Source of the DNA: Bdellovibrionales bacterium GWB1_55_8
Lineage (GTDB): Bacteria; Bdellovibrionota; UBA1018
Direction of reading: 5' to 3'
Length of the DNA: 32,342 bases
NCBI GenBank assembly: GCA_001769835.1
Contig: MEPR01000085.1
Span: 1 to 32,342 of the forward strand
Part shown: positions 24,778 through 27,844 of the stretch, piece after piece
Numbering within the stretch: position 1 is the first letter of the stretch
Layout of the letters: each line of letters opens with the position of its first letter
Notes under the pieces: generated by a model
Database searches by the model: none
Told to the model about the DNA's origin: nothing
Seen by the model: only the letters and a program-made list of their open reading frames with translations
Translations under genes and position numbers: made by a program

Positions 24778-24828
24778 AAAAAAAGAGCGGAGCTTTCCCG
24801 GACGCCCTATGGAGGGGCGCCCGGGAAA
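24778..24828 (-). terminator. Strong hairpin after the basic-peptide gene
   Basis: Read on the minus strand, a 14-bp stem (24828-24815 with 24807-24794, one G-T pair) closes a seven-base loop just six bases after the stop of the basic-peptide gene. A run of seven T (24784-24778) follows, but nine bases lie between stem and T-run, so this is a slightly atypical Rho-independent terminator. Confidence 0.65.
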
Positions 24829-24833
24829 TAAAA

Positions 24834-24908
24834 TTACTTCTTCTTGGTCTTGGTGGTCTTCTTGGCTTTGGTTTTCGCGGCGGTTTTTGTTTTCTTCTTG
24901 GTGGCCAT
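24834..24908 (-). CDS. 24-residue lysine-rich basic peptide (histone H1-tail-like)
   Basis: A 25-codon frame starts with ATG at 24908 and stops with TAA at 24836-24834. The product has 24 residues: Met, 12 Lys, 7 Thr and 4 Ala, with no acidic or large hydrophobic residue. It begins MATKKKTKTAA and ends in three Lys. GGAG lies six bases before the ATG, a TTGTCA/TATGTT promoter lies upstream, and a strong hairpin follows six bases after the stop, so it looks like a complete one-gene unit. The composition resembles H1/Hc-type nucleoid-binding tails. Such a peptide could bind DNA, RNA or polyphosphate; this is inference from composition alone. It is too short for most gene finders. Confidence 0.7.
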   Translation of the reverse strand: MATKKKTKTAAKTKAKKTTKTKKK

Positions 24909-24952
24909 GGATATCTCCAGTGTTATTGGTTGTTGATCGTACTGCTTAAGTC

Positions 24953-24981
24953 AACATACCTGTCGTTTGTCATATGACAAA
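24953..24981 (-). promoter_or_regulatory. Promoter with perfect 16-bp palindromic operator candidate
   Basis: Read on the minus strand, TTGTCA (24980-24975) is followed after 16 bp by TATGTT (24958-24953), with an expected transcription start near 24946 and a leader of about 38 nt to the basic-peptide ATG. The -35 hexamer lies inside the perfect palindrome TTTGTCATATGACAAA (24966-24981), the layout expected for a dimeric repressor that blocks polymerase. Confidence 0.55.
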
Positions 24982-24994
24982 ACTTTTTTTTCAA

Positions 24995-25441
24995 TCACTC
25001 ACTCTCTTTTGGATTCACCGGATCCCGCGCGAGCGCTGATTGAATTTCTTCGGCAGCGTACAATCGCGCACGATGGGTTGCCTCGCTTGCTCCTCGGCAG
25101 AATGACAAAACCTGTGATCGCCATGCACGAGCGTTCATGTTCTCAGGCCAGAAAGGCCATGTTCGGCACTGTTCCGGTCGCGCTTCGTAAACTTCACAGC
25201 CGTTGTTTTTGAAAAAGCCACAGTCCAACCGGGGATTTTTAAGATGTGTCCAGCCATCTGTTTCCTCGCAATATTTCCGGCGAAACTCTTTTTCGGAAAG
25301 CTGGAGGTGAAGAGCGAGACGTTGGCGGTCCTTTTTGGTGAGATAAACGAATCCGTAGGTATCACGGGCCTGACAACACTTGCCGCAACCCAGACACTTG
25401 AACCGGACCCCCTTTTTCCAGAACGCAGGCCTCGGACTCAC
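24995..25441 (-). CDS. YkgJ-family cysteine-cluster protein
   Basis: This 148-residue protein belongs to the YkgJ/CxxCxxCC family: CLGCGKCCQ at the N terminus, then CGFFKNNGCEVYEARPEQCRTWPFWP, and a late SFCRG. The conserved cysteines probably bind zinc or an iron-sulfur cluster; the biochemical role of the family is not settled. It starts with GTG inside the TGA of the copper chaperone gene (GTGA), so translation is coupled to copZ. That placement suggests, but does not prove, a part in metal handling. Confidence 0.85.
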   Translation of the reverse strand: MSPRPAFWKKGVRFKCLGCGKCCQARDTYGFVYLTKKDRQRLALHLQLSEKEFRRKYCEETDGWTHLKNPRLDCGFFKNNGCEVYEARPEQCRTWPFWPENMNARAWRSQVLSFCRGASEATHRARLYAAEEIQSALARDPVNPKESE

Positions 25442-25647
25442 GACAGTACGTCGAAACCCGCATCTTCGATGGCGGACTTGAAATCCTCTTTCGTGGCGGA
25501 TTTGTCATCGTATTCAATGGCAACCTGCCCCTGATCGAGCGAGACGTTCACGTTCTTGACCCCTGAGATGGGTTCCAGGACTTTCTTCACGCTGCGTACG
25601 CAGCCATCGCATGTCATTCCCTGTACTTTCAGAGTGATGTTAGCCAT
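25438..25647 (-). CDS. copZ: CopZ-like copper chaperone (HMA domain)
   Basis: This 69-residue protein is a single heavy-metal-associated domain with the metal site GMTCDGC, beginning MANITLKVQ. It would carry Cu(I) to the CopA pump encoded just upstream. The frame is open further upstream, into copA, but AGGAAGG five bases before this ATG, together with family length, fixes the start at 25647. The copA stop and this ATG are separated by a single base, and its stop overlaps the YkgJ gene start, so the three genes form a compact operon. Confidence 0.92.
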   Translation of the reverse strand: MANITLKVQGMTCDGCVRSVKKVLEPISGVKNVNVSLDQGQVAIEYDDKSATKEDFKSAIEDAGFDVLS

Positions 25648-25648
25648 T

Positions 25649-27844
25649 TCAGCCTTCCTTTCGTTTACCAATCGTGTTTGGGCGCCAGCGACGTAAAAGC
25701 AGTGAATTGCTGACAACGGAAACCGAACTCATTGCCATTGCCGCGCCTGCGATCACGGGATTCAGCATCCCCGCGGCAGCAAGCGGGATCCCCAAGACGT
25801 TGTAGATGAAAGCGAAGAAAAGATTCTGGCGAATTTTGCCAAGAGTCGCGCGAGAAAGGCTGATCGCATCGGATACGCTCGTCAGGTCGTTTCGGACGAG
25901 CGTGATATCGGCAGCCTCGATGGCCACGTCCGCTCCCGCTCCTATCGCAAATCCGACATCGGCCGCGGCCAAAGCGGGGGCATCATTGATTCCATCCCCC
26001 ACCATTCCGACCACATTTCCTGCGCCTCGGGCCTGGCTTACCTGTGCCGCTTTCCCTTCGGGGAGAACTCCCGAAAAATAGCGCGGGATCCCGGCCTGTT
26101 CCGCGATTACAGCGGCGGTACGCGCGTTATCACCCGTCATCATGATGACTTCGACACCCTGCTTTTTAAGAAGGGTGATCGCGTGAAGTGAGCTGGCGCG
26201 AATGGGATCGGATAGGATCAGGAAGCCCAGGGTCTTTTCGGTGGAGGCAATTGCAACGATGGTTCCAGGTCGTCTGGACAGTTCTTCAGCCAATGCGTCC
26301 GGTGCTTGGTGGCCCAGCTCAGATACGAAATCAAGGGAACCAAGCCTGTAGCGAGTGCCGGCAACCTCGCCTTCGACGCCCTTGCCAGGAACCGCGGCAA
26401 AATTCCTCAATTCGCCAGGAACAGTGGCGTTCATTGCCGCGCGGTCCAGAATCGCTCGTGCAAGCGGATGGGTGGAACCCTGCTCCAGGCTGGCAGCTAT
26501 GCGGAAGAGTTCCTTTTCGGTCGTATCGCTGAGTGGGATGGCAGCGGTGATCGAAGGACGCCCTTCGGTTAAAGTTCCTGTTTTGTCCACAATCAGTGTT
26601 TTTATCTTCTCGGCTCTCTCAAGCGCCGCCGCGTTCCTGACCAGAATTCCAGCACGGGCGCCGCTTCCGGTGCCCACCATGATTGCGGTAGGCGTCGCAA
26701 GTCCGAGGGCGCACGGACAGGCAATGACCATCACTGCGACAGCATTGATCAAGGCAGTCGTGAAATCACCTCCGAGCCACCACCAACCGATGAAGGTGAA
26801 CAGGCTGATGGCTGTGACCACGGGCACGAAAATTCCGGATATGCGATCCGCAAGACGCTGGATTGGCGCCTTGGATCCCTGGGCCTCTTCAACGAGGCGC
26901 ACGATTCGGGCGAGCGCCGTCTGGTCACCAACGCCCGTTGCCCGGCAGCGAAGCAAGCCATTGGAATTTTGAGTGGCGGCAAAGATCTTCATCCCGACGG
27001 CCTTATCCACCGGCAGGCTCTCGCCCGTCAGCATGGATTCATTCACGGAGGAGAGTCCTTCGAGGACTTCGCCGTCGACAGGAACGCTTTCACCTGCTCG
27101 AACAAGAAAAATGTCGCCGCGTCTGATCTCGTCAGTGGGTAGCTCCACCACCTTGCCATCGCGCTCGACATGAGCTGTTTTCGGTTGAAGCTTCAAGAGC
27201 TCCTCGATCGCTGCGGAAGTTTTTCCCTTGGCGCGCGCTTCCAGCAGTTTTCCCATGAGCACCAACGTGACGATTGCCGCGCTTGCCTCGAAATAGACGT
27301 GAAGCGGCAAGTCGAAAACTGTCACCACAGCGCTGAAGAAGTACGCCATGCTTGTCCCGAGTGCGACCAGTACGTCCATGTTCGCACCGCCTCCGCGAAG
27401 CGCGTGCCAGGCGCCGATATAGAAACGGCGACCGATCCAGAATTGCACGGGCGTGGCCAGGGCCAGCTGCGCCCATCGTGGGATGAACTCGTGGTGCGCG
27501 GCTCCTGTGAACATTGCGCCCATTTCGAACAGAAAGGGAGCCGTCAGCGCGAGAGAGAAAAGAAACACACGTCGATCATGTTCGTAGGCTTCGGCTCGCC
27601 GTTTCTTGTCCTCTGAGGGTGAAATTTCGTGAATTTCACGGGCACCGTAGCCGGCTTTTTTGACGACTTCCATCAGTCGTTCGGCGGTGACTTGTGAACC
27701 GTCGAACTCGATTCTCGCCTTTTCGGCGGGCAGGTTAACGGTCGCCTTTACACCCGGCTGACGATTCAACGCCTTTTCAACGCGCGTTGAACACGCGGCA
27801 CAGGTCATTCCGTCAATGAAGAGCTCTAATTTTTGGCGCGGCAC
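25649..27844 (-). CDS. copA: Copper-exporting P1B-type ATPase CopA
   Basis: This 731-residue pump has one N-terminal metal-binding domain (GMTCAACS), membrane helices, the CPC ion site in [13 protein letters not shown], the phosphorylation motif DKTGTLTEG, the HP motif in STHPLARAI, and the hinge [10 protein letters not shown]. The last helices carry [11 protein letters not shown] and [10 protein letters not shown], the pattern of Cu(I) pumps. It exports Cu(I) from the cytoplasm using ATP. The start is GTG, six bases after a -10 element and without a Shine-Dalgarno. The first gene of the copper operon, it is followed by copZ and a YkgJ-type gene. Confidence 0.95.

Follow-up and report, generated by a model that had tools for sequence, protein, structure and literature searches.

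One question raised by this locus is whether a reading frame of only 24 codons plus a stop encodes a functional peptide and, if so, what such a peptide would do. The frame lies on the minus strand of a 32,342-nucleotide contig stretch (the window, meaning the whole stretch that was analyzed) from Bdellovibrionales bacterium GWB1_55_8. The initial annotation had described it as a self-contained gene for a free peptide resembling a histone H1 tail, with its own promoter, a ribosome-binding site, a hairpin after the stop codon and a palindromic operator. The features concerned are as follows.

24834..24908, minus strand: ORF of 24 codons plus stop, translated as MATKKKTKTAAKTKAKKTTKTKKK; a divergent second copy of the peptide family described below
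24915..24918, minus strand: Shine-Dalgarno-like GGAG, 6 nt before the ATG (family consensus GGAGG(A))
24953..24980, minus strand: promoter-like TTGTCA-16-TATGTT, with 9 of 12 sigma-70-type matches, in the context GGTATGTT
24984..24991, minus strand: A8 tract directly upstream of the −35, resembling the A-tracts of the canonical copies (possible UP element, from sequence)
24966..24981, no strand: perfect 16-bp palindrome TTTGTCATATGACAAA, overlapping the −35 (TTGTCA lies inside it); putative operator
24794..24828, minus strand: 3′ hairpin with 14-bp arms and a 7-nt loop, from folding; probable terminator

The translated product comprises 12 Lys, 7 Thr, 4 Ala and one Met; it is half lysine and has no acidic residue, as had been claimed. 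Among the window's ORFs of 15–44 amino acids, it alone reaches 40% Lys while lacking acidic residues. Sixty dinucleotide shuffles of the whole window produced no such ORF, the maximum being 29% Lys, and its occurrence is not due to chance. An in-frame stop 14 codons upstream of the ATG shows that the frame is not the tail end of a longer ORF. The GGAG, the promoter-like site with its −35 inside the palindrome and the 14-bp hairpin were likewise all found. The promoter-like site is situated 72 nt upstream of the ATG, was seen once against 0.2 times expected in shuffles, and has a weak −10 (TATGTT). The 3′ hairpin (−28.2 kcal/mol; z −5.3) begins 5 nt past the stop; it is not a textbook terminator, since the T7 run at 24778–24784 is separated from the stem by 9 nt, and a search for such terminators listed none. 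The leader of this copy is unstructured (z +0.58).

The palindromic operator found no comparable support. Its sequence has one exact site in the whole genome, near matches with up to three mismatches are no commoner across the genome than those of the reversed-pattern control, with no sign of an operator regulon, and no such palindrome was found in the canonical copies examined. By chance, a stretch as long as the window should hold about 0.5 perfect palindromes of at least 16 bp, or roughly one in every two windows. An operator role is possible but, for a palindrome that is unconserved and has a single genomic site, unproven. The window contains another perfect palindrome of 16 bp, TTCAACGCGCGTTGAA at 27776–27791 within an ATPase gene, which illustrates the chance rate.

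When 40 related genomes were searched at the DNA level, the matches were weak and every one of them fell on the coding part; when translated, several proved to be free Lys/Ala/Thr micro-ORFs such as MATKKKATKKKTAKKKTAKKAKKK. The relatives include Bdellovibrionales bacterium GWA1_52_35 (G003), an Oligoflexia bacterium (LF-bin-469; G015) and a Deltaproteobacteria bacterium (NC_groundwater_501; G024). The family was defined as free ORFs of 15–28 codons that start with MA(K/T)KK, have a Lys content of 40% or more, lack acidic residues and end in a Lys run. The window ORF matches the strict pattern and passes the composition filter. The strict start-to-stop pattern was present in 22 of the 40 relatives and in 31 of the 55 genomes of the order, with zero matches for the reversed-pattern control; the relaxed pattern brought the latter count to 44 of 55. 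Four further genomes were recovered by other routes (G044, G026 with 15 residues, G033 and G005), and the seven remaining ones are mostly incomplete assemblies. Nearly every genome of the order, which comprises the relatives of the predator Bdellovibrio, encodes a tiny basic peptide of this family. The canonical copies measure 20–28 residues and the family as a whole 15–28, with a variable number of repeats. Across the phylum the relaxed pattern matched 140 of 369 genomes, a figure that should not be read as the number of free peptides, as many of the matches outside the order are out-of-frame in longer H1-like proteins or lie in unrelated ORFs.

The canonical copy is defined by its surroundings. 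It is convergent with a gene that, from its sequence, we take to be dihydroorotate dehydrogenase (pyrD): the peptide lies immediately convergent to pyrD in 25 of the 30 pyrD loci and about 1.1 kb away in 2 more, while two of the other three loci end at a contig edge. In many genomes it is also divergent from a sensor-kinase-like gene. The window's own genome carries its canonical copy beside pyrD (MATKKKATKKKAAKKTATKKKKK; G000:C68:45321-45392), and this other copy (L062/L206) has the pyrD convergence together with the canonical promoter and 5′ stem-loop.

Codon usage argues for translation. Compared pairwise, 37 family members show 0.179, 0.152 and 0.523 differences per site at the first, second and third codon positions, respectively. 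The 513 Lys codons consist of 299 AAG and 214 AAA, which alternate freely, and none of the 193 KKK triplets is written AAA-AAA-AAA, where about 14 would be expected; no formal probability is attached to these statistics because the sequences are related. Such an absence is the pattern that would be expected of a translated gene avoiding slippery A9 runs. Checked in the relatives, as the initial annotation had proposed, the family proved to be conserved, with synonymous changes in the Lys codons and with a promoter, ribosome-binding site and terminator of its own, and this conservation supports the original view of a real, self-contained gene for a free peptide. Judged by these comparisons, the family is under coding selection and forms a separate transcription unit, and 24834–24908 is evidently a genuine protein-coding micro-gene, an extra copy of the order-wide family of free Lys/Ala/Thr(Val) peptides. 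The same data bear on whether the locus is instead a non-coding RNA or the leader peptide of an attenuator. Its layout, namely a structured 5′ leader, a Lys-rich frame and a terminator, does resemble that of a leader peptide. For the canonical copy this explanation is contradicted by the convergent pyrD, which, being on the opposite strand, leaves no downstream gene to control; furthermore, third positions change while amino acids are kept, and no match at the Rfam gathering score was obtained for 14 loci. We regard it as hardly tenable.

The canonical unit runs in the order A-run, promoter, leader of about 40–80 nt with a stem-loop, GGAGG, peptide and terminator. Its promoter reads CTTGAT-N16-GTAACATC, also written CTTGAT-N16-GGTAACATC, and appears strong, having an A-tract, a near-consensus −35 and a conserved −10. 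Runs of six or more A precede 31 of the 35 canonical copies, where 6.5 would be expected. In a blind search of 24 genomes for the promoter, 9 of 11 matches were located upstream of the peptide, which makes it a property of the peptide gene and not of a regulon; no wider regulon was found in that scan. The match in G005 exposed a divergent member, MKKKTSKRKTTTKKKRTRKCCKH, which the peptide patterns had overlooked. The leaders fold more stably than their shuffled versions (mean z −2.7 for 36 leaders vs −0.01 for a 40-nt control stretch), and their stem sequences differ between genera while the hairpin persists. A comparison of G019 and G047 reveals compensatory double changes in two adjacent stem pairs (A-U to G-C and G-C to A-U). 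The 5′ stem-loop probably protects the mRNA. The canonical 3′ hairpins are also strong (mean z −3.8).

The window copy differs from the canonical one in sequence (a KTKT alternation), place and promoter: pyrD convergence, the CTTGAT-N16 promoter and the 5′ stem-loop are all absent from it. It is unique to its own genome among the genomes compared, and the relatives' ykgJ-like loci, when searched for an adjoining peptide, had none. In the window the peptide gene comes after a ykgJ-like gene, which itself comes after genes for an HMA chaperone and a copper-type ATPase. Immediately upstream is a tight minus-strand cluster, 25438–27844 and 24995–25441, whose content is a copper-type P-ATPase with an HMA domain, a small HMA chaperone and a CxxCxxCC (YkgJ-like) protein. 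Read-through from this cluster could reach the peptide gene.

These features might be taken to mean that this duplicate is silent or in decay and that only the copy beside pyrD matters, the conserved promoter sequence and leader hairpin being missing and no orthologue standing at the same neighbor in relatives. Against this, the frame, composition, GGAG, promoter-like site, A-tract and 3′ hairpin are intact, the avoidance of A homopolymers typical of the family is retained, and intact extra copies exist elsewhere: three besides the canonical one in G010 and one in G018. Silence or decay is, in our estimation, improbable. The window copy is a lineage-specific duplicate; its different promoter and missing 5′ stem-loop suggest that it yields the same kind of polycation, probably with a different expression.

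The three extra copies of G010 (L056, L074 and L076) are nearly identical and have a common promoter region unlike the canonical one; two of them adjoin the same 408-residue unknown protein, which suggests a duplicated or mobile cassette.

The peptides fall into no known protein family. Four family members had no Pfam match at E ≤ 1 and the window peptide had none at E ≤ 0.001; NCBIfam gave nothing at E ≤ 10, and PHROGs left the family unmatched. A phmmer search of a canonical member against 177,635 PDB sequences returned none at E ≤ 10, a test weakened by low-complexity bias; empty profile and PDB searches are indeed expected of sequences of low complexity. In the open-licence papers searched, no report was found of a free tail gene of 20–28 residues conserved across an order. 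H1-like tails within larger proteins are already known; a free one as its own order-wide gene would appear to be new. Annotation rarely keeps ORFs of fewer than 30 codons, and a strongly selected gene present throughout an order can therefore stay invisible.

What, then, might such a peptide do? The reading that we favor, with a probability of about 0.52, is that it is a free polycation which acts by charge-based, H1-tail-like binding of nucleic acid, most probably nucleoid DNA, and that the window copy is a duplicate of it. The peptide would be abundant and disordered, its net charge lying between about +12 and +15, and would bind without sequence specificity, through charge neutralization. 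By analogy, it would represent the C-terminal tail of histone H1 freed as a gene of its own, and most probably would help to condense or shield nucleoid DNA. The low-complexity KKKxA repeats, variable in number as in H1-like tails, speak for nucleic-acid binding. The family has no conserved Arg, His or aromatic positions; this lack of any other conserved residue, together with the variable repeat number, favors non-specific binding over one fitted site. Lys/Ala-rich peptides derived from AlgP bind DNA in vitro (PMC9239181). Also on the side of nucleic-acid binding are two other settings of such repeats, as the N-terminal tail of SWIB-domain proteins in the sister group and, in Opitutae, at the end of an ORF with a weak ribbon-helix-helix match. 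Of the potential partners we consider nucleoid DNA the most probable, followed by the ribosome and then by polyphosphate.

Several known proteins resemble the family. Hc1/Hc2 of Chlamydia and AlgP/PhaF of Pseudomonas share with it low-complexity Lys/Ala(/Thr/Val) repeats of 4–5 residues in variable number, the lack of acidic residues and presumed disorder. Their tails belong to long proteins or domains, whereas the family consists of a 20–28-residue tail alone under its own promoter. Protamines and small acid-soluble spore proteins are small, abundant and DNA-neutralizing, and in this are like the family peptides; protamines, however, are Arg-rich, the spore proteins have 60–70 residues with defined helices, and neither is related to the family in sequence. 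As regards the longer proteins, AlgP has 352 residues, with a KPAA region of 154 (PMC9239181), and Hc2 has 165–237 (PMC2848022). SWIB-domain proteins from other families of the same phylum (L241, L243, L245, L255 and L258) start with MAKKK and contain (K)KKxA repeats as the family does; in them a long Lys-rich N-terminal tail is fused to the SWIB domain (E 6e-31), whereas the family peptides are free. The domain (PF02201) is absent from the window genome and was found in 4 of the 55 genomes of the order. Bdellovibrio is said to owe the tight packing of its chromosome to proteins of which some are still to be identified (PMC11318664). Should the peptide be abundant on DNA or in the ribosome, it would supply a missing basic factor in the relatives of this bacterium.

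The AlgP analogy also raises the idea that the peptide binds polyphosphate or another polyanion, as a granule organizer or counter-ion, since the H1-like, Lys/Ala-rich AlgP organizes polyphosphate granules and requires its repeat domain to do so (PMC9239181). AlgP, however, is a protein with two domains, and ppk, ppx and granule genes were absent from the loci examined. Polyphosphate as the partner would seem quite improbable.

A wider search brought in evidence for the ribosome. When 84,980 species genomes were scanned with a pattern, at least 115 loci were obtained, of which at least 63 are free peptides that pass the composition filter (at least 40% Lys; no acidic, aromatic or several other residues). 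Sources of free peptides among the matches listed are Acidobacteria, Bacteroidetes, Phycisphaerae, Nitrospirae, Omnitrophota, Elusimicrobia, Proteobacteria and Bdellovibrionales; their low complexity does not allow a claim of common descent across these phyla. In three loci from Chitinophagaceae/Sphingobacteriales (L118, L126 and L160) the order is rplU-rpmA-peptide-polX-like, and a Lys/Ala peptide of 22–29 residues follows the presumed genes for ribosomal proteins L21 and L27, so named by sequence. This context points to the ribosome and not to DNA, and a ribosome-linked micro-protein is possible there.

By extension, the peptide of the order could be a ribosome-associated micro-protein of the bS22/bTHX kind, which fills an rRNA pocket or neutralizes rRNA during assembly. 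bTHX is a short, very basic ribosomal protein that is often unannotated. The size, the charge and the strong single-gene promoter agree with this proposal, as does the peptide of Chitinophagales/Sphingobacteriales located 115 nt after rpmA in the three loci. The family and bS22/bTHX are alike in their length of about 20–33 residues, strong basicity and missing annotation (for bS22, PMC10618245); the Borrelia ribosome contained both bS22, which is 61% Lys/Arg, and bL38, neither of them annotated (PMC10618245). However, bS22 has abundant Arg besides Lys and sits in a defined rRNA pocket, whereas a family that conserves no Arg, His or aromatic residue and varies in repeat number is unlike a peptide fitted to one site. 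In addition, no PDB chain matched, ribosomal proteins included, the pyrD neighborhood has no link to translation, and the Chitinophagales peptides may not share an ancestor with the family. A ribosomal role is accordingly unlikely, though it is the main rival to the reading that we favor.

Beyond the order, it is conceivable, at rather less than even odds, that a hidden class of encoded micro-polycations of 20–28 residues exists in several phyla, missed because of their length, which would be an abundant component of the nucleoid or ribosome and have one of the most conserved promoters of the order. The peptide pattern and the promoter together provide a ready search key for the same class in other phyla.

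Two sets of pattern matches were set aside. The sequence MAKKKHRKLLKKTRIQRRNKKK of L114 and L167 (Catenulispora-like Actinobacteria), although caught by the pattern, was not counted in the free-peptide family; it resembles actinobacterial bS22. Matches in Opitutae (L086, L107, L116, L125, L189 and L190) were removed from the free peptides because the frame continues from an upstream ORF. There, the ORF that leads into the Lys/Ala-rich end is weakly ribbon-helix-helix-like, and an isocitrate-dehydrogenase-like gene lies downstream.
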